Below are positions 23,345 through 59,576 of a stretch of DNA of 64,000 bases, piece after piece. This stretch comes from Fictibacillus terranigra (GTDB taxonomy: Bacteria; Bacillota; Bacilli; Bacillales; Fictibacillaceae): positions 868,001 through 932,000 of the forward strand of contig NZ_JAUHLN010000001.1 in NCBI RefSeq assembly GCF_030412265.1. The letters run 5' to 3'. The position numbers were made by a program, and so were the translations under genes. Within the stretch, counting starts at the first letter, position 1. Every line of letters starts with the position of its first letter. The notes under the pieces are model-generated. The model saw only the letters and a program-made list of their open reading frames with translations. It ran no database searches and had not been told where the DNA came from.

Positions 23345-24976
23345 ATGATGATGAATGTGCCTTTAAGAGTGACAGCCATGATAGAGCATGCGGAAGCATT
23401 TTTTCCAAAGAAGACAGTGGTCAGCCGGACAGCTTCCGGGATCAGAACGTTTACGTACCGTGAAATCGCAAACAGGACGAGAAGACTGAGCAGTGCGCTT
23501 AAAAAGATTGGCGTTCAAAAGGGGGACAAAGTGGGGACGCTGGCCTGGAACCATCACCGCCACTTGGAGGCCTATTTTGCCATCCCGGGGGCCGAGGCCA
23601 TTCTTCATACCATTAATATCCGCCTTTCTCCCGCTCACATCGCATACATCATTAACCATGCCGAAGATAAGGTTCTGCTCATTGATCAGGACATCCTTCC
23701 GCTGATAGAAAAGTTAAAAGATGAAATCGCCGGTGTTAAAGCGTTTATCTTGATGACAGATGAGCAGGAGCTGCCGGCTTCATCGCTTGAACCGCTGTAT
23801 CATTATGAAAAACTGCTGGAAGAAGGAGAACCATCATTTACTTTTAATCCGGATATTGATGAAAACGAACCGGCAGGGATGTGTTATACGTCAGCCACGA
23901 CCGGAAATCCAAAGGGAGTCATCTATACTCACCGAGGGATCGTTCTGCACAGCATGGCACTCGGGCTTGCAGATGGCGGCAGTGTATCTGAGTCAGACAT
24001 CTGCATGCCGGTTGTTCCCATGTTCCATGTGAACGCGTGGGGGCTTCCCTTTGCGGCGGTCTGGTTCGGAACGACTCAGGTGCTTCCTGGGCCGCAGTTT
24101 ACGCCAAAGCTGCTTGCACAACTGATCGAACGGGAAAAAGTGACGATCACCGCAGGAGTTCCAACCATCTGGCTTGGCCTTTTAAAAGAATTGGATGAAG
24201 GGAACTATGATACAGGAAGCCTCCGATCTATTTTATGCGGCGGTTCCGCAGCACCTAAAGGAATGATCAAAGCGTTTGAAACAAGGCACAATATTCCGTT
24301 TGCCCATGCATACGGGATGACAGAAACAAGCCCGCTTGTTATTTTTTCACGGATTAAAAGTTATCAGCAGGACTTGGACTATGAAGAAAAGCTTAACATT
24401 CGGGCCAAGCAGGGTTACCTTGTTCCCGGTGTGGAGATGAGAGTGAAAGGTGCATCTGGAGACGTCAAATGGGATGGGAACGAGATGGGTGAACTGCTCC
24501 TGCGGGGCAACTGGATCGCCGATGAATATTACGGTGATGAAAACCGTTCGGCCTTTGAAGAGGGATGGCTGCATACAGGAGATGTTGTCACCGTCGATGA
24601 GGAAGGAACGATAAAAATCGTCGACCGTACGAAAGATTTAATAAAGAGCGGAGGAGAATGGATCTCTTCTGTCGACCTTGAAAACGCTCTCATTGCGCAT
24701 GACGATATTTATGAAGCGGCAGTGGTTGCTGTACCCAATCCGCAATGGCAGGAAAGGCCGGTTGCCTGTGTCGTACTAAAAGATAAAGCAAAAGGTAAAG
24801 TAACAAAGGAAGATATCAAAGAATACTTACAACCTCAATTTGCAAAATGGTGGATACCCGACGATGTACTGTTTATGGATGAAATACCAAAAACGTCTGT
24901 CGGCAAGTTTCTAAAAAGAGCGTTGAGGGACCAGGTGAAAGACCATTATGCCGGGGCTCAAACATTGGAAAAATAA
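23345..24976 (+). CDS. Fatty acyl-CoA synthetase (AMP-binding enzyme)
   Basis: A 543-residue acyl-adenylate/CoA ligase. The phosphate-binding loop reads Y-T-S-A-T-T-G-N-P-K-G (Ala in place of the usual Gly in T-S-G-T-T-G), followed by Y-G-M-T-E-T (motif A5) and D-R-T-K-D-L-I-K-S-G-G-E-W-I-S (hinge), with the catalytic Lys near the C-terminus in P-K-T-S-V-G-K-F. This matches the medium/long-chain fatty acid ligases that feed beta-oxidation. AAGGGAGG precedes the ATG. A terminator separates it from the sigma-54 activator gene. Confidence 0.92.
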   Translation: MMMNVPLRVTAMIEHAEAFFPKKTVVSRTASGIRTFTYREIANRTRRLSSALKKIGVQKGDKVGTLAWNHHRHLEAYFAIPGAEAILHTINIRLSPAHIAYIINHAEDKVLLIDQDILPLIEKLKDEIAGVKAFILMTDEQELPASSLEPLYHYEKLLEEGEPSFTFNPDIDENEPAGMCYTSATTGNPKGVIYTHRGIVLHSMALGLADGGSVSESDICMPVVPMFHVNAWGLPFAAVWFGTTQVLPGPQFTPKLLAQLIEREKVTITAGVPTIWLGLLKELDEGNYDTGSLRSILCGGSAAPKGMIKAFETRHNIPFAHAYGMTETSPLVIFSRIKSYQQDLDYEEKLNIRAKQGYLVPGVEMRVKGASGDVKWDGNEMGELLLRGNWIADEYYGDENRSAFEEGWLHTGDVVTVDEEGTIKIVDRTKDLIKSGGEWISSVDLENALIAHDDIYEAAVVAVPNPQWQERPVACVVLKDKAKGKVTKEDIKEYLQPQFAKWWIPDDVLFMDEIPKTSVGKFLKRALRDQVKDHYAGAQTLEK

Positions 24977-24982
24977 GTGGAG

Positions 24983-25012
24983 AGCCGCCTTGTTCCGATA
25001 AGGCGGCTTCTT
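24983..25012 (+). terminator. Terminator between acyl-CoA ligase and sigma-54 activator genes
   Basis: AGCCGCCTT (24983-24991) pairs perfectly with AAGGCGGCT (25000-25008), followed by TCTTGCTT. Confidence 0.75.
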
Positions 25013-25034
25013 GCTTAAAGAAGAGGTGTCAGGG

Positions 25035-26423
25035 TTGCTGCTTACTGAAAATCAATTTAAGGATGAACTGCTTGAAACCATACTTGATAATGCCTTCCAT
25101 TGTGTCGTTGTTGTGGATGTAGATGGCGTCATCACGTATATCAATAAAGCCTATTGTGATTTTATAAAAGTAGATCAAATGGAATCGATCGGGAAGCATG
25201 TTACGGATGTCATTGAAAATACCCGTATGCATATCGTCGCCAGAACAGGTAAAGAAGAGATCGCCGATCTTCAGCACATTGAAGGAAACTATATGATTGC
25301 AGACCGCATCCCGATCTTTCGGAACGGACAGACTGTCGGAGCGGTGGGAACGGTTACTTTCCGGGATACCGAAGAATGGCGAACGATGAATTCCCACATT
25401 AAAAATCTCTTAACGGAGCTGGAGTACTACCGAAATGTGCAGGAGGAAAATACTGGCGCCAAGTACTCCCTGCATGATATTGTGGGGAAATCCGCACCGA
25501 TCATCGTACTGAAGGAGCGCATCAAAAAAATTGCAACCAGTGAAGTATCCGTGCTGATACGAGGGGAGAGCGGCACTGGCAAGGAATTGTTTGCCCATAG
25601 CATCCATCAGCTCAGTGAACGAAGCAATAAGCCGTTCATTAAAGTAAACTGCGGGGCCATACCGGAGCATTTGCTCGAATCAGAACTCTTTGGGTACGAA
25701 GAAGGAGCTTTTACCGGTGCAAAAAAAGGCGGAAAGCTCGGGAAGTTTCAGTTGGCAGACGGGGGGACGCTTTTACTGGATGAGATCGGTGATATGCCGA
25801 TGCACATGCAGGTCAAGCTGCTTCGTGTCCTTCAGGAAAAAGAAGTAGAGGCGGTTGGCGGTGTAAAACCGGTTAAAGTCGATGTCCGCGTGCTAGCGGC
25901 GACAAACAAACCTTTAGAAAAGATGGTAGAGGAACAGCGGTTTCGTGAAGATTTATTTTACCGGATCAATGTCATCCAGATCAATATTCCTTCACTTCGC
26001 GAGCGGCCGGAAGACATCGAACAGCTGTCACAGCATTTTCTTCAAAAAATCAATAAGCGGACAGGCAGAAGAATCCTCGGGATGCATAAGGACGTCACCC
26101 GCCTTTTCGCTAAACATAACTGGCCAGGCAATGCCCGCGAACTTGAGAACGTCATGGAAGCGGCAGTCCACCTATGCCAAGGAGAGTGGATTACAAACGA
26201 CGCTCTCCCTGATTACATGAAAGAAGATTCGACCATGGAACTGGGGACTAAAAGTCTGAAGGAAATACTCGAAGACACCGAAAAAAGAGTGCTGCGGGCC
26301 GCATTAAGGGAACATCACGGCGACAAGCTTCAAGCCGCTAAGAGCCTCGGGATCGGGAAAACGAGCCTGTATGACAAGCTGAAGAAGTATGGAATGGTGG
26401 AAAAGGCTCCAGACTCCACATAA
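25035..26423 (+). CDS. Sigma-54 enhancer-binding protein, PAS-AAA+-Fis architecture
   Basis: A 462-residue activator of sigma-54 (SigL) RNA polymerase. A PAS domain (about 10-120) should sense the signal. The AAA+ domain has Walker A G-E-S-G-T-G-K-E, the sigma-54-contacting G-A-F-T-G-A loop, and Walker B G-T-L-L-L-D-E-I. A Fis-type helix-turn-helix (A-A-K-S-L-G-I-G-K-T-S-L-Y-D-K-L-K) is C-terminal. TTG 25035 follows AGAGGTG; the frame is open from 25011. Ligand and targets are unknown; the only good sigma-54 promoter seen in this window is at 58.5 kb. Its 3' end overlaps the truncated MocR gene. Confidence 0.9.
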   Translation: MLLTENQFKDELLETILDNAFHCVVVVDVDGVITYINKAYCDFIKVDQMESIGKHVTDVIENTRMHIVARTGKEEIADLQHIEGNYMIADRIPIFRNGQTVGAVGTVTFRDTEEWRTMNSHIKNLLTELEYYRNVQEENTGAKYSLHDIVGKSAPIIVLKERIKKIATSEVSVLIRGESGTGKELFAHSIHQLSERSNKPFIKVNCGAIPEHLLESELFGYEEGAFTGAKKGGKLGKFQLADGGTLLLDEIGDMPMHMQVKLLRVLQEKEVEAVGGVKPVKVDVRVLAATNKPLEKMVEEQRFREDLFYRINVIQINIPSLRERPEDIEQLSQHFLQKINKRTGRRILGMHKDVTRLFAKHNWPGNARELENVMEAAVHLCQGEWITNDALPDYMKEDSTMELGTKSLKEILEDTEKRVLRAALREHHGDKLQAAKSLGIGKTSLYDKLKKYGMVEKAPDST

Positions 26424-53065: not shown

Positions 53066-54610
53066 TTATTTACCGTCGACAGCGGTTGTCATCGGTTCTC
53101 GTTCTTTTCCGGTTATTAAATCAATGACTTTCGCCGGGTCGTCCGGTGCTCCAACCTTCTTGCTGCCCGGGGCCTTTTTATGTTTTTCTACCCAGTCAAC
53201 GAGCAGATCGAATGATTGATAGACGTAAGGAAGTAGAGGCTGAAGCTCTTTGTTCGGATCGGTCGCACTGTTCCATACAAGACTGTCTACATGGTTGCCC
53301 TTCTCGATGGTATACAGCCGGTGAAGGCTGCCCCGGCCCTTCTGTTTTATCAGTTTATCATAAGGGTCAGCATGGATGGATGGAAAGATAAGAGAATCCC
53401 AGGAACCGGTCAGGCTGATTAGGGGAACGTCGATTTCACCAGTATTTTCAATGTCTTCCACGTTCTTTTTCACCTGTTCCGGCCGGGAGCTATAATCATA
53501 ATCTTGAAAAATGGAATCATAGGTGCGGTCGCGGACCCCGTTCTTGAAGTTTAAGTAGTTTCTCCAGTCCAGGCGGTTTGGAGCGGTGGGATCCAGTTCA
53601 TCTCTGTAAATATTTAGGGTCACAAACCAGTATACCTGGTCATGATAATTCCATAGATTTTCTGATCCTTTAGGAAGGCCGGAATGGTATAACGCTTCCC
53701 GGGCCGTCCTCTGTTCCGCAGGCGTTCCGTACAACGCCTTTTCCGCATGATTGACAACAGGAGTGAGAGAGGTGATCAGGTTGGGTTTGTGAGCCCTCCA
53801 CAATACACCTTCCCAATCGATGCCGCCGTCAAATAAAGCAGGATACCCCGTTTTTTTCATGCCGTCATGCTCCAGTGCGTAGCGGACAACATAGCCTCCA
53901 TTGGATATGCCGACCGCGTATGTCGGCACCCGGTGGTAAGGCTTGATCAGCTTGCTTGCAGGGTTTTTTCTGTCGTTTCTCCTGATAAGCTGGTCAGAAT
54001 AATGTTTTACGAGATAGTTTTGTGCAGCGATAGTGATCTGCCGGAATCTTTGGTGCCATTCGGAAATGCTGTCATCATCGCTTGCAAGAGCATTTTTTAC
54101 CTTTGCGAAAGGATCGCTGGGATCTTCTGTCCCTTGAGTGCCTTTATCAATGGCGGCAAAGGCATATCCTTTAGCCAGCATAAAGTCACTGAACAGGAGG
54201 TCTGTTGACGTTTCATTCCGAGTAGCAGGAATACCTGAAACAACAAGCTTGCCGTTCCAGTCATCTGGCACCCTGACTACAAATTTGGCATCATCGAAGG
54301 TTCCGTTCACTTGAGTGCCCTTAACCTCTGCCGGCTGATACAGCTTGTTCCAGCCTGTTCCCTTTGACTTTTCTCCCCAATTGTAAGGAGCCAGACCAAG
54401 ATTTCCATAGACAGTAGCCGCTTCATACTGCTTTTGATTCTTCGTTGTTAGCCAATTGCCGTCTTTCCCATCAAAGCGGGTTTCTATAACATCATGTGCC
54501 CCTTTAAAATCAGCGGGCTGTTGCGGCCCTTTCCCAGCATGAACCTCTGATAGACTTGAAAACAGCAATAGCGCAGTTGCAGCCGTTATTCCAATCCATT
54601 TCCCTCTCAT
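53066..54610 (-). CDS. Secreted alpha/beta hydrolase, likely 3-hydroxybutyrate-oligomer hydrolase/tannase-type
   Basis: The 514-residue protein has a clear signal peptide (cleavage near V-H-A-G, residue 25) and is exported. The catalytic Ser lies in [10 protein letters not shown] (near 230), with a candidate His in [23 protein letters not shown] and [11 protein letters not shown] resemble secreted 3-hydroxybutyrate-oligomer hydrolases and tannase-like esterases. The position directly downstream of a 3-hydroxybutyrate operon favours polyhydroxybutyrate or its oligomers as substrate, but that is inference from context. Confidence 0.7.
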
Positions 54611-54687: not shown

Positions 54688-55473
54688 TTATTGGGCGGTG
54701 TATCCGCCGTCGATGACAATGGCCTGGCCAGTAACTCCTCCAGCTTTATTGCTGGCGAGGAAGATCGCATAATCAGAGATCTCCTTAACTGAAAGCAGTC
54801 GTTTTTGCGGAACGAGAGGATAGATGACCTCCTCCAGAACTTTTTCAAGTTCTACATTCCGGGTCCGAGCCAAGTCTGAGAGCTGATTTCTTACAAGCGG
54901 TGTATCGACATATCCAGGGCAGATGGCATTTACCGTAATTCCATGCTCTGCACCTTCAAGGGCAGCCACTTTTGTCAGACCGATCACGCCATGCTTCGCA
55001 CTGTTATAGGCAGCTTTTCCGGCAAACCCGACGAGCCCATTGATGGAGGCCATATTAATGATGCGCCCGAAGCCTTGTTTTTTCATGATCGGAAATGCAT
55101 GCTTTGTCGCCATGAATGGCGCAGTCAGCATCACTTTGATCAGAAGCTCAAATTTCTCAGTCGGAAACTCTTCAATCGGTGATACGTGCTGGAGGCCGGC
55201 ATTGTTGATGACGACGTCCAGTCTTTCGAATTCCTTAACAGCCTCATCCATGGCTTGTTTGAGAATCCTTTCATCGCTGACATCACAAGCTGTTCCTATA
55301 GCATGATATCCTTTTTCCCGCAGTGAAGCCGCCGCATCTCTGGCCTTTTCCTCATTTAAATCACAAATGGCCACTTTTGCGCCTTCTTTGGCAAAGTCAA
55401 TAGCGATCTCAAGTCCGATTCCGCTTGCAGCTCCTGTAATAAATGCGACTTTATCCTGTACTAAGCTTCCCAT
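54688..55473 (-). CDS. 3-hydroxybutyrate dehydrogenase (SDR family)
   Basis: It oxidises (R)-3-hydroxybutyrate to acetoacetate with NAD. The 261-residue SDR protein has T-G-A-A-S-G-I-G (11-18), N-N-A-G-L-Q-H-V-S-P-I-E-E-F (about 90-103, the NAG motif with the dehydrogenase-specific Q-H-V), the active site Y-N-S-A-K-H-G (Tyr/Lys near 156-160) and N-A-I-C-P-G-Y-V-D-T-P-L-V. AAAAAGGAG precedes the ATG. It is the fourth gene of the sco operon, 109 bases after the permease. Confidence 0.9.
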   Translation of the reverse strand: MGSLVQDKVAFITGAASGIGLEIAIDFAKEGAKVAICDLNEEKARDAAASLREKGYHAIGTACDVSDERILKQAMDEAVKEFERLDVVINNAGLQHVSPIEEFPTEKFELLIKVMLTAPFMATKHAFPIMKKQGFGRIINMASINGLVGFAGKAAYNSAKHGVIGLTKVAALEGAEHGITVNAICPGYVDTPLVRNQLSDLARTRNVELEKVLEEVIYPLVPQKRLLSVKEISDYAIFLASNKAGGVTGQAIVIDGGYTAQ

Positions 55474-55582: not shown

Positions 55583-56977
55583 TCAAACGATGCCAAAAAG
55601 ATAATAGAGGGCGATCACGAAAAATACAGCAATCGTTTTAATGATGGTCATCGCAAAAATGTCAAAATAGGATTGTTTATGTGTTAATCCCGTAACAGCA
55701 AGCAAGGTGATGACTGCTCCGTTATGAGGAAGAGTGTCCATTCCGCCGCTCGCCATGGAAGCGACTCTGTGAAGAACTTCAGGGTCGATACCAAGTTTGT
55801 CGGCCTGTGCGGCATACTTATCTCCCATCGTGGCAAGGGCAATACTCAAACCGCCGGAGGCTGAACCCGTAATGCCAGCCAGGGCAGTTGTTGTCACAGC
55901 TTCGTTAACGAGAGGATCCTGAATGGTATCGGCCATCCCTTTGTTAACTGCCGCAAAGCCAGGGAGAGCCGCGATCACTCCACCGAATCCGTATTCGGAA
56001 GCGGTATTGAGCGTAGCGAGCAGTGCTCCGCCGATTGAAACATTGATGCCGGCATTGAAATTTGATTTTACTTGTCTGAAAGCAAACAAGAGAACGGTTA
56101 CAATTCCGATCACAAGGGCTCCTTCGACCGCCCATACCGCAGCGAGTTTAGGAATTTCAACAGGAGGGACATCCTTCATTCCAATTTTTGAGAAATCAAA
56201 CACGGTTCCGTAATACTTAGGAATGAGGTTCGTAAATACTTTATTGAAAATACCGACGAGAAGAAGAGGCAGGATGGCAACAAACGCATTTGGCAGCACT
56301 TCATCCGGAATTTGTTCCGGCTCGTTAATATGACCGGTTCCATAGCCCTCTCCAGCTCTGGCTGCTTTCCTTCTTCTCCATTCCAGATAGGTCATCCCAA
56401 TCGCAAGAACAAACAGACCGCCGATCAATCCAAGCCAAGGTGCAGCCCACGTATCCGTCTTAAAAAACGTAGTAGGAATGATATTCTGAATTTGCGGTGT
56501 TCCCGGGAATGCATCCATCGTAAAGGTGAACGCACCGAGCGCAATCGTTCCAGGGATGAGGCGTTTCGGAATATCCGCCGCTTTAAATAGCTCGGAAGCG
56601 AACGGATAGAGTGCAAAGGCTACGACGAACAGGGAGACGCCGCCATAGGTAAGGATAGCCCCGACAAGGACAATAGCCAGCATGGCTCTGCTCGGTCCGA
56701 TTAATCTGATGACCGCTCTTGTAATGGATTTTGCAAAGCCTGACATTTCTATTACTTTTCCGAAAATCGCACCAAGCAGGAAGACAGGGAAATATAGTTT
56801 AATAAACCCGACCATCTTTTCCATGAACACTCCCGAGAAGAACGGGAGGACATGGCCAGGATCAGTTAAAAGGACGGCGAAAAGCGCAGCGATCGGTGCA
56901 AACAAAATAACGCTGAAGCCGCGGTACGCGACAAACATAAGGAAAAATAAAGCCAATAAGATAATAATGATATCCAC
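55583..56977 (-). CDS. GntP-family permease, likely for 3-hydroxybutyrate
   Basis: A 464-residue transporter with about 12 membrane segments. Family motifs include T-Y-G-G-V-S-L-F-V-V (about 110-119), T-M-D-A-F-P-G-T-P-Q-I-Q-N (near 153) and G-S-A-S-G-G-L-S (near 373). The gluconate permease family includes the B. subtilis YxjC protein encoded beside scoAB and a hydroxybutyrate dehydrogenase, the same set as here. Proton-coupled uptake of 3-hydroxybutyrate is therefore the best guess. Confidence 0.88.
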   Translation of the reverse strand: MDIIIILLALFFLMFVAYRGFSVILFAPIAALFAVLLTDPGHVLPFFSGVFMEKMVGFIKLYFPVFLLGAIFGKVIEMSGFAKSITRAVIRLIGPSRAMLAIVLVGAILTYGGVSLFVVAFALYPFASELFKAADIPKRLIPGTIALGAFTFTMDAFPGTPQIQNIIPTTFFKTDTWAAPWLGLIGGLFVLAIGMTYLEWRRRKAARAGEGYGTGHINEPEQIPDEVLPNAFVAILPLLLVGIFNKVFTNLIPKYYGTVFDFSKIGMKDVPPVEIPKLAAVWAVEGALVIGIVTVLLFAFRQVKSNFNAGINVSIGGALLATLNTASEYGFGGVIAALPGFAAVNKGMADTIQDPLVNEAVTTTALAGITGSASGGLSIALATMGDKYAAQADKLGIDPEVLHRVASMASGGMDTLPHNGAVITLLAVTGLTHKQSYFDIFAMTIIKTIAVFFVIALYYLFGIV

Positions 56978-57075: not shown

Positions 57076-57753
57076 TTAATAGGAATCGAGGTTAATATTT
57101 TCTGAAAGAGTAAGGTCGGGCTCGGTGCATTGGCGGATGTCCTCCACGTTATAGCCATTGGCTACTTCGACAAGCACCAAACCGTTATCGGTGACGTCGA
57201 TCACAGCTCGTTCTGTGATAATCCGGTTGACCACACCTCGCCCCGTTAACGGCAGGGTACATTCATCTAATATCTTGCTTTTTCCGTCTTTGCTGACATG
57301 GTCCATGATGACGACGATCTTTTTCGCCCCGTGGACAAGATCCATCGCGCCTCCCATGCCTTTTATCATTTTTCCGGGGATCATCCAGTTCGCCAGGTCG
57401 CCACTTTTGGAAACCTCCATGCCTCCAAGGATCGCCACATCGATATGCCCGCCCCGGATCATTCCGAAGGATTCTGCACTGTCAAAATAAGAAGCGCCCT
57501 CGATTGCTGTGACCGTTTCCTTCCCGGCATTGATTAAATCAGGATCGACGTTAGCTTCATCAGGATAAGGCCCTATTCCTAAAAGTCCGTTCTCAGACTG
57601 CAAAACAACACGCTTATCTCCCGAGATATAATTGGCAACGAGAGTAGGCATTCCGATCCCTAGATTGACATAGTAACCGCTTTCAATTTCCTGTTCAGCA
57701 CGTCTGGCGATTTTTTCTCTAATCGCTTTTTTGTCCATTACTTTCATGCTCAT
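57076..57753 (-). CDS. scoB: 3-oxoacid CoA-transferase subunit B
   Basis: The 225-residue beta subunit carries the catalytic Glu in [11 protein letters not shown] (near 53) and the family start [22 protein letters not shown]. With ScoA it moves CoA from succinyl-CoA to acetoacetate, allowing entry of ketone bodies into thiolysis. It follows scoA by 17 bases, with GGAGG before the ATG, and the permease gene follows after 98 bases. Confidence 0.93.
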
Positions 57754-57770: not shown

Positions 57771-58460
57771 TTAATTGGCAACTGTTAACCTTTCAATTCT
57801 TTTTTCCTGTGACCCAACAATCAGGGACTGGACATAGATTCCAGGAGTGTGGACGGCATCGGCATCCAAAAATCCTGCCTCGTTCAGTTCTTCCACCTCT
57901 GCGATCGTTGCCTTGCCCGCTGCGGCCATCAGAGGATTAAAGTTTCTTGCTGTTTTGTGATAGACCAAATTGCCCATTCTGTCCGCTTTGGCAGCCCGAA
58001 TGAGACTGAAATCTGCCTGAAGCCCCGTTTCCAGCATGTATTCTTTCCCTCCGAAAGATCTGATCTCTCTGCCTAGAGCAAGTGGAGTTCCTACTCCGGC
58101 AGGGGTATAAAACGCCGGGATGCCTGCACCGCCTGCTCGGATACGCTCCGCCAATGTGCCTTGCGGGATCAGTTCAACCTCAATTTCACCCGATAAAACT
58201 TGCCGCTCAAATTCTTTGTTCTCTCCTACATAAGAACCTACCATCTTCTTTATCTGGTTATTTTTCAGAAGAAGGCCAAGGCCCCAATCATCGACGCCAC
58301 AGTTATTGGAGATGATGGTTAAATCCTTAGTCCCTTTTTCGACAAGGGCAAGAATAAGATTTTCAGGGATACCGACCAAGCCAAAACCGCCTACCATAAG
58401 TACGGAACCGTCCTGAATGTCCTTCACCGCTTCTTTAAATGAAGATAATACAGGTTTCAT
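57771..58460 (-). CDS. scoA: 3-oxoacid CoA-transferase subunit A
   Basis: The 229-residue alpha subunit has the CoA-binding loop [11 protein letters not shown] (about 22-32) and [11 protein letters not shown], typical of SCOT alpha chains. It is the first gene of the 3-hydroxybutyrate operon, behind AAAAGGAGTG and a sigma-54 promoter whose -12 element lies about 40 bases upstream of the start codon. Confidence 0.93.
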
Positions 58461-58496: not shown

Positions 58497-58515
58497 CTTG
58501 CAAGTTCCGTGCCAA
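58497..58515 (-). promoter_or_regulatory. Sigma-54 (SigL) promoter of the sco operon
   Basis: On the minus strand TTGGCACGGAACTTGCAAG matches the sigma-54 consensus TGGCACG-N4-TTGCA, with the invariant GG (58513-58512) and GC (58501-58500) 12 positions apart, as required. The predicted transcription start is near 58489, about 29 bases before the scoA ATG. Confidence 0.9.
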
Positions 58516-58578
58516 AATGAAGCAGATAAAGGGCTGTCACACTTTTGATATTTTTATGAATATTTTAAACAGAGAAAA

Positions 58579-58594
58579 TTCCGGTAATGCGGAA
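58579..58594. promoter_or_regulatory. Enhancer-like palindrome copy 1 (TTCCG-N6-CGGAA)
   Basis: TTCCGGTAATGCGGAA, centred about 85 bases upstream of the sigma-54 -12 element, within the usual distance for an enhancer-binding-protein site. Confidence 0.75.
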
Positions 58595-58647
58595 AAAAAG
58601 TGAAGGTAAATGACCGGAAAGGCAAAGGAGAAAAGGACAAAACCCTT

Positions 58648-58683
58648 TTCCGAAAAAACGGAATCAATTCCGTTTTTTCGGAA
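58648..58683. promoter_or_regulatory. Enhancer-like palindrome copies 2 and 3 (TTCCG-N6-CGGAA)
   Basis: Copy 2 is TTCCG-A6-CGGAA (58648-58663) and copy 3 TTCCG-T6-CGGAA (58668-58683). Their centres are 20 bases apart, two helical turns, suited to cooperative binding. A further half-site TTCCG lies at 58688. The two copies also form a perfect 20-bp inverted repeat (about 58645-58686), so a hairpin or terminator role for the gene at 58701 cannot be excluded. Confidence 0.7.
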
Positions 58684-58700
58684 AAGATTCCGTCGAAATG

Positions 58701-59576
58701 TTATAGGTTATTTACAGTTTTCCAGAGTTTGGCCAGCGAGGTACTGATAGAGTCGATGATTTTATCTGTTTTAAAATAATACAAGTGGGAGAGAGGAGAC
58801 CATGAAGTGAAAAGATTTCCTGTGTTCACTTCGATGTCTTTTGTCACAGACCGGCTGTATTCTTCATTTAATGTTTTTAAAGGAAATGCAATAACATCAT
58901 CCTGATCATAAAAATTAATCCATTCACCCTGCACACGGCTGTAGTGTTTTTTTAAAAGCGGTGATGGAACACGGATGGGACTGTCAAAATCTGAATATCT
59001 CAACGTCCATAGAGGCATGGGAGTCCCCATCGTATAAAAGCTCGTCAGGGTTTCACCGTTTTCAAGAGGGTTGTCTGATTTAATCCGTTTTATAGATTCA
59101 GAAATTTTATCCGGTATATATTGAAGGTCATAAAAATAATTGCTTGCAATGACGGTGCCAAGGCTGTGGGAGACAACAGACAGAGGGGTTTGATCTCCTG
59201 CTTTGTTCCGAAGCGTATGCAAGGCTTTCGCCACGGTCTCATGTACTCGTTCATAATTAGGATTTAAATGGGGCAGTGCTGCAGGAGCAGGCTGATAGGC
59301 GATGGCATCTCCGAAAAAGCGGATGACAAACTTGCGGAGAGGAGCATAGTTGAGCGATATCTTTTGGTTCACCGATGTCCATAAGTCCTCTTCACGGTCA
59401 TTAAATACGCTGCCCCAAAAAACAGGTATCATTTCAAGCTGTGTTTCGGGTGAATGATGATGGGAAGCGATTTTTGTTCCGAAGCTGCGGTTTAAAGCCT
59501 GCATAAAATCATCGGCGTATGTTTCATCCTGATTGCCGATGCCATGGAGGATCAGAACTCCTACTTTAACTGACAT
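58701..59576 (-). CDS. Cytoplasmic alpha/beta hydrolase
   Basis: The 291-residue protein starts V-L-I-L-H-G-I-G-N-Q-D (oxyanion region) and has the nucleophile elbow V-V-S-H-S-L-G-T-V (Ser near 138) found in lipase-like serine hydrolases; a candidate Asp is in F-Y-D-Q-D-D-V. No signal peptide is visible. It lies upstream of the sco operon on the same strand but is separated from it by about 240 bases with the sigma-54 control region. An intracellular esterase is likely; a link to hydroxybutyrate oligomers is only suggested by position. Confidence 0.72.
   Translation of the reverse strand: MSVKVGVLILHGIGNQDETYADDFMQALNRSFGTKIASHHHSPETQLEMIPVFWGSVFNDREEDLWTSVNQKISLNYAPLRKFVIRFFGDAIAYQPAPAALPHLNPNYERVHETVAKALHTLRNKAGDQTPLSVVSHSLGTVIASNYFYDLQYIPDKISESIKRIKSDNPLENGETLTSFYTMGTPMPLWTLRYSDFDSPIRVPSPLLKKHYSRVQGEWINFYDQDDVIAFPLKTLNEEYSRSVTKDIEVNTGNLFTSWSPLSHLYYFKTDKIIDSISTSLAKLWKTVNNL

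Follow-up and report, generated by a model that had tools for sequence, protein, structure and literature searches.

HbcR (PA2005) of Pseudomonas, for which Lundgren et al. (2015) is said to be the original description, is by analogy a functional precedent for the regulator described here. Papers citing that work present HbcR as an enhancer-binding protein (EBP) of (R)-3-hydroxybutyrate (3HB) catabolism that works with RpoN (PMC8694187, PMC10482368). As portrayed there, it resembles our regulator in being a sigma-54 EBP of 3HB catabolism with an N-terminal PAS domain (PA2005 residues 17-123), reportedly activated by R-3HB. However, it comes from another phylum, and the two are likened by function rather than by sequence, binding site or gene layout. 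AtoC (AtoSC) of Escherichia coli appears in passages of PMC3162934 as an EBP for acetoacetate and short-chain fatty acid genes, and sigma-54 control is again tied to a ketone-body signal. GabR of Bacillus thuringiensis is described as a PAS-AAA+-HTH EBP regulating GABA genes, whose protected region holds an inverted repeat of 21 bp with a 5-bp separation, like the site pair reported below; the word "terminator" is absent from the text of that paper (PMC4279683). The accessible part of PMC4428206 names eight EBPs of B. thuringiensis, none of them a 3HB regulator. An in silico survey of sigma-54 regulons names COG1788/2057, COG2610 and COG1028, partly for Bacillota, and predicts sigma-54 promoters for CoA-transferase, gluconate-symporter and SDR genes; unlike the present analysis, its accessible part mentions neither an EBP nor a binding site, and neither a link between the genes as an operon nor a terminator (PMC12316311).

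Here, we analyzed a 64-kb stretch of DNA from a member of Fictibacillaceae (the window, meaning this stretch at its full length). It carries a 3HB/acetoacetate operon, and the region upstream of it very probably acts as its sigma-54 (SigL) enhancer and promoter, with the EBP encoded at 25011-26423 as activator and with two of the enhancer sites doubling, in relatives, as the terminator of the EBP gene. The first-pass annotation of this DNA knew of no published EBP with the site TTCCG-N6-CGGAA; our search, which most subscription journals lay outside, again found none, nor did it find literature on the site, on this EBP in Bacillales or on a terminator-enhancer overlap.

Promoter, palindromes and genes of the 3HB operon

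Three exact copies of TTCCG-N6-CGGAA occur in the window, against 0.10 expected, and at least three were reached in 0 of 100 dinucleotide-preserving shuffles; allowing up to one mismatch, six matches were found against 2.27 expected. We treat the three exact copies as putative UAS sites, to which no strand is assigned. Site 1 (58668..58683) is met first in the direction of transcription and lies farthest from the promoter, site 2 (58648..58663) lies 20 bp from it, and site 3 (58579..58594) is promoter-proximal. The array also includes the extra half-sites TTCCG (58688..58692) and CGGAA (58615..58619). The -24/-12 promoter TTGGCACGGAACTTGCA (58499..58515, minus strand) has no mismatches to TGGCAY-N5-TTGCW, and the scoA ATG (58460) lies 38 bases beyond it. 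The initial description of this region, a near-consensus -24/-12 element before scoA, palindromes about 85, 155 and 175 bases upstream of its -12, two of them 20 bases apart, and an extra half-site, agrees with our measurements, which place the palindrome centres at about 85, 154 and 174 bases.

Across the whole genome the palindrome was found at 12 places, compared with 6 for a reversed-pattern control. A wider regulon formed by the other copies was considered and rejected. Seven of the eight examined were located inside ORFs of at least 100 aa, and at none of the eight places examined (of nine outside the scoA promoter) was there a sigma-54 element with fewer than two mismatches within 300 bases; we take these copies as chance occurrences. 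A second perfect -24/-12 match, TTGGCACCGTCATTGCA, lies at 59145-59161 (minus strand) inside the ORF at 58701-59576. Within the genus it has a one-mismatch version at one locus (L157) and none at four (L153-L156), and is probably a chance match. An element TGTGACA/GTCACA, suspected by eye between site 3 and the promoter, was dropped after it was found at 6 of 88 loci against 2.0 expected.

All genes of the operon lie on the minus strand. The two subunits of 3-oxoacid CoA-transferase are encoded by scoA (57771..58460; TIGR02429, 264 bits) and scoB (57076..57753; TIGR02428, 329 bits), and 3-hydroxybutyrate dehydrogenase (HBDH) by the gene at 54688..55473 (TIGR01963, 370 bits), all three matches exceeding their cut-offs. 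Between them, a GntP-family permease-like ORF (55583..56977) scores 18.4 bits to PF02447, below the cut-off of 22.5. A GntP-like gene is a recurrent operon member in relatives, and this one is a probable 3HB/acetoacetate transporter. After HBDH there follows a hydrolase-like ORF (53066..54610) with a sub-threshold Tannase match (PF07519, 26.9 bits, cut-off 29.8) and no NCBIfam match, which we take to be a possible 3HB-oligomer hydrolase; a 73% relative of it sits between scoA and HBDH at locus L184. On the other side of the array, an ORF that looks alpha/beta-hydrolase-like by eye (58701..59576, minus strand; no Pfam or NCBIfam match) occupies, in this genus, the spot that the EBP gene holds elsewhere.

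The candidate activator and its association with the array

The EBP gene at 25011..26423 (plus strand) encodes, according to Pfam, PAS, Sigma54_activat and Fis-type HTH domains. The matches are PF00158 at 245 bits, with the GAFTGA motif present, and PF02954 at 44.8 bits and PF00989 at 31.1 bits, each over its cut-off. AtoC resembles the proposed activator in its link to a CoA-transferase operon. It is, however, a two-component response regulator, unlike the window EBP, which has a PAS domain and no receiver-domain match in Pfam. The EBP gene and the scoA operon, both in the window, are 32 kb apart, and in six genomes of the genus the distance is about 23-33 kb. In Halobacillus litoralis, Virgibacillus litoralis, Oceanobacillus piezotolerans and Bacillus sp. 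RAR_GA_16, scoA directly follows an EBP gene, and the palindromes or near-copies of them lie between the two together with a near-perfect -24/-12 element. The window EBP is 63, 63, 59 and 64% identical to these four EBPs, respectively.

The genome encodes a single RpoN (one PF04552 match, 213.5 bits) and has 13 Sigma54_activat matches of at least 140 bits. With that many candidates, and with the window EBP gene 32 kb from the operon, another EBP of the same genome might activate the scoA promoter. We give this almost no credence, since the window EBP is the best match to the scoA-linked EBPs whereas the remaining ones reach at most 42% identity to them over at least 400 residues. Moreover, no exact palindrome was found within 1.5 kb of the 13 other perfect sigma-54 matches in the genome; two of these have a one-mismatch palindrome at least 400 bases off. 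Judged by these sequence comparisons, the window EBP is the likely activator of the array, which it would bind directly.

In the family sample, the EBP was found in 33 of 34 genomes, and all 33 also had the sigma-54 promoter and the array. Promoter and array precede scoA in six genomes, all of the window's genus, and GntP in the other 27. The six loci of the genus (L152-L157) each have three exact sites and a TTGGCAY-N5-TTGCW element with no mismatches before scoA. At the 18 loci of genus g2 and the eight of genus g4, the array lies between the EBP stop and the GntP gene; many copies in g4 and a few in g2 are one-mismatch versions of the palindrome. One g2 locus (L183) has a single exact site, its two others being degenerate, and at another (L150) the promoter is located farther off. 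In the remaining genome (G019, locus L184), the array lies between the EBP gene and a divergent run of GntP, HBDH, hydrolase, scoA and scoB. The 24 scoA paralogue loci that are not linked to the EBP (3.7 kb each) had neither the exact palindrome nor an exact -24/-12 element; five of them had a one-mismatch palindrome and six a one-mismatch -24/-12. The sole family genome that lacks the EBP has no sigma-54 promoter with sites at its scoA.

Across the order, an EBP at E <= 1e-130 was found in 202 of 397 sampled genomes. After two loci with no whole EBP ORF detected (L263, L264) were excluded, 66 EBP loci were analyzed, 63 of them outside the family (the 26 best-scoring and 37 chosen to spread over genera). 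A sigma-54 element with at most one mismatch was present within 500 bp at 60 of them (50 exact). A same-strand gene resembling scoA, scoB, HBDH or GntP was present within the stretch examined at 59, a count that takes in weak or distant cases (L184, L237) and loci with an AMP-ligase-type gene first (L252, L254, L265). Strict sites, TTCCR-N6-YGGAA, numbered at least one at 47, at least two at 36 and at least three at 27 of the 66 loci, and loci short of strict sites need a relaxed outer base or a mismatch. With the outermost base relaxed, 59 of the 60 loci that bear the promoter have a site pair 18-23 bp apart scoring at least 18 of 20; among 1860 shuffled regions, 1 does. Site 3 scored 10 of 10 at 48 of these loci (6 of 3000 shuffles) and at least 9 at 55 (109 of 3000). 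Shuffles in these tests, and in those of hairpin z, TGTGACA and sigma-A patterns, preserve base composition without preserving dinucleotides. A free test of the pair is provided by the 60 order loci and not by the six regions of the window's genus, because the latter were cut by reference to the sites; nor do any of these counts represent independent events, because the genomes are related.

The array follows the EBP gene irrespective of whether scoA, HBDH or GntP is the first gene downstream. At five loci (L245, L257, L258, L260, L261) neither the promoter nor strict sites were found downstream of the EBP, the EBP frame of L245 being split. L262 has the promoter and no site pair (pair score 14), and L184 has its promoter on the other side of the EBP. 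In sum, the palindrome goes together with sigma-54 promoters, with 3HB genes and with a single group of EBP orthologues in 33 of 33 EBP-bearing family genomes and most of the order sample, which is the check that the first-pass annotation had proposed. This comparison supports its reading of TTCCG-N6-CGGAA as the binding site of an EBP that would respond to 3HB or acetoacetate.

The regulon is not limited to 3HB genes, because some EBP orthologues (56-58% identical; L243, L253, L259) precede an AMP-ligase-type gene. In the window, an AMP-ligase gene (23345..24976, plus strand) lies directly before the EBP gene, a neighbour retained at five other EBP loci of the genus. Some loci of other genera (L243, L252-L254, L259, L265) have an AMP-ligase-type gene on the downstream side of the EBP, with 27-28% identity. 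These neighbours hint at a wider ketone/fatty-acid regulon. Some genomes have two EBP copies (G060, G102, G329, G360). In G060, one copy (L244) precedes GntP/HBDH and another (L243) an AMP-ligase-type gene; the two have separate sigma-54 promoters and form a possible sub-functionalised pair.

Site geometry and the hairpin of sites 1 and 2

Geometry and covariation were tested with one locus per genus. From a set of 93 loci, L262 was removed before the covariation and hairpin tests, which left 92 loci and 44 genera, and loci with a site-3 score below 9 were removed from the site-3 tests, which left 88 loci and 41 genera. The spacing between the starts of sites 1 and 2 (scanned from 18 to 23 bp) is 19-22 bp in all 44 genera, with 20 bp in 32 and 21 bp in nine. 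The distance from site 3 to the start of the -24 element falls at 55-57, 66-68 or 77-81 in 38 of the 41 genera, that is, in steps of about one helical turn, and this periodicity was matched by 0 of 2000 jittered controls. Distances between sites 2 and 3 are periodic as well, more weakly (2/2000). Helical phasing of site 3 to the promoter is what an activator bound to DNA would need. We propose that EBP dimers would occupy three TTCC[G/A]-N6-[C/T]GGAA sites, two of them tightly paired at a distance of about 20 bp (two helical turns) and the third in phase with the promoter. The bound subunits would then form an active AAA+ ring, with GAFTGA loops that could act on the sigma-54 polymerase complex at TTGGCAY-N5-TTGC to open it. 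Sensing of 3HB, acetoacetate or a close metabolite would probably fall to the PAS domain.

Sites 1 and 2 are also the two arms of a perfect 20-bp inverted repeat (58645..58686, minus strand) that resembles a terminator hairpin with a weak T-tract tail, GTTTTGTCCT. The repeat and its surroundings (96 bases in all) have a folding energy of -35.9 kcal/mol (z -6.3), and the repeat is located between the stop of the upstream same-strand ORF (58701) and site 3. A terminator scan over 7 kb is weak on its own, because it returned nine terminator-like sites where shuffles gave 8.0. Among relatives, hairpin z was below -3 at 87 of 92 loci, and 34 of 44 genera have at least six T among the ten bases that follow site 2, compared with 3 of 41 for site 3.

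The two arms covary. Mirror matches between sites 1 and 2 were more frequent within loci than across them for the outermost base (0.955 vs 0.540), the R/Y base (0.773 vs 0.498), the spacer (0.663 vs 0.482) and the four flanking bases (0.511 vs 0.398), all at 0/2000, and the outermost pair occurs as T-A, G-C and A-T. There was no such excess between sites 1 and 3 or 2 and 3 in the one-per-genus test; two weak ones seen with all 88 loci (11/2000) were gone when shuffling was done within genera. Under within-genus shuffling, the spacer excess of sites 1 and 2 persisted (0.732 vs 0.670, 0/2000), and the outermost base (318/2000), the R/Y base (140) and the flanks (578) were not above chance.

Since two of the three sites form one hairpin, we weighed first whether the 20-bp-spaced palindromes are solely the intrinsic terminator of the upstream gene, with an accidental likeness in site 3 and no EBP array. 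The perfect inverted repeat after the upstream stop and the T-tract that 34 of 44 genera have behind site 2 would fit such a terminator. Nevertheless, the 16-bp motif recurs as site 3, with full scores at 48 of 60 loci against 6 of 3000 shuffles, mostly goes without a T-tract there and is phased to the promoter. Furthermore, in the window's genus only one of six loci has at least six T after site 2, yet the sites are exact at all six. On site 3, phasing and these exact sites beside a weak T-tract, we reject a terminator as the whole story and regard it as highly improbable.

A further possibility is that the complementarity of sites 1 and 2 is a mutational by-product rather than a terminator. 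Inverted copies 3-6 bases apart are prone to quasi-palindrome correction by template switching, and covariation alone would be compatible with it. Such correction could give the covariation, yet not the T-tract; the spot right after the EBP stop and the T-tract (34 of 44 genera after site 2 against 3 of 41 after site 3) are what a terminator needs. We therefore consider the by-product explanation unlikely. In relatives, the low hairpin z together with the T-tract after the EBP stop is read as an intrinsic (Rho-independent) terminator of the EBP gene, made from two putative enhancer sites. In the EBP mRNA, the tight pair would form a hairpin followed by U residues and end the transcript. One stretch would thus have both roles, as enhancer in DNA and as terminator hairpin in RNA. 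The layout of EBP gene, array, promoter and 3HB genes is widespread and probably ancestral. In the window's genus, the EBP gene would have come to lie apart from the operon, with another ORF before the array, exact sites and a weak T-tract. The use of an enhancer as terminator was also considered as a general rule, and the intergenic regions between EBP genes and sigma-54 promoters at three other loci of the genome (L002, L006, L012) were inspected. It is not general in this genome, because one region (L012) has an ordinary GC-rich terminator and no inverted repeat of at least 9 bp was found in the other two.

A sister clade without the GAFTGA motif

GAFTGA is missing from the regulators of Ureibacillus sinduriensis (L069) and Paenisporosarcina (L039). 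Relatives of this kind were first sought in the order sample of the window, where the matches listed are at most 49% identical to the U. sinduriensis protein. We sampled the Ureibacillus family (151 genomes, 39 with a match to this type) and analyzed 30 loci, including that of U. sinduriensis. All 30 lack GAFTGA, and none has a sigma-54 element at up to one mismatch in 520 bases. The site pair is nevertheless retained at a score of at least 19 of 20 at 28 loci and the full relaxed site 3 at 26, and the downstream gene is scoA at 17 and GntP at 13. A loose sigma-A pattern was found at 28 of the 30 loci, and a strict one (TTG-N3, 17 bases, TTTAAT) at 26, in a near-constant place, against 6 of 1500 shuffles. 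An rpoN match is present in 22 of the 30 genomes and in none of the other eight. In this clade the array would have outlived sigma-54 control, the -24/-12 element being replaced by a sigma-A-like promoter and the regulator left without its GAFTGA loop; the two losses may represent a single ancestral event. Passages of PMC3162934 describe VpsR, YplP and DhaR as EBP-like proteins that also lack GAFTGA. Unlike those cases, here one orthologous operon family includes both GAFTGA states around one conserved array.

After the regulator stop, 24 of the 30 loci have cre-like boxes (e.g., TGAAAGCGCTTT) a short way downstream of the sigma-A-like promoter, and catabolite repression may have come along with the exchange of promoters. 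The region from site 3 to the sigma-54 promoter has cre-like matches at 2 of 88 loci, a count not comparable like for like with the former because pattern and region differ. In Bacillus sp. HF117, a 46% EBP homologue near scoA (L055, 9428-11431, minus strand), in another context, also has no match to the GAFTGA pattern.

Survival of the array next to a regulator that lost GAFTGA could indicate that another regulator, for instance a repressor, binds the sites and that the EBP acts elsewhere. On the other hand, the array follows the EBP gene whichever of scoA, HBDH or GntP comes first, lies at activator distance and in phase with the -24/-12 element, and its exact palindrome is absent from all 24 scoA paralogue loci unlinked to the EBP. 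A different regulator is therefore very unlikely, and we retain the EBP as the protein that would bind the array.

The enhancer-terminator overlap and the sigma-factor swap go beyond the first-pass annotation. We lean slightly towards accepting both together, that is, an enhancer-terminator chimera in about 40 genera, possibly coupling EBP occupancy to EBP synthesis, plus a change of sigma factor around a fixed array in the sister clade. Such coupling could arise if bound EBP formed a roadblock at the 3' end of its own gene, or if termination spared the enhancer from passing polymerase.

Bacillales include bacteria that store poly-3-hydroxybutyrate. If the proposed reading is true, it would name an activator, a binding motif and a set of genes by which many Bacillales use ketone bodies (3HB). 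It would also document, by comparison, an enhancer that is constrained twice, as protein sites at the DNA level and as a terminator at the RNA level. Likewise, the sister clade would be one in which a like regulator and site array abandoned sigma-54, and a change of sigma factor in an EBP-controlled operon would be open to direct test by promoter swaps around one array.
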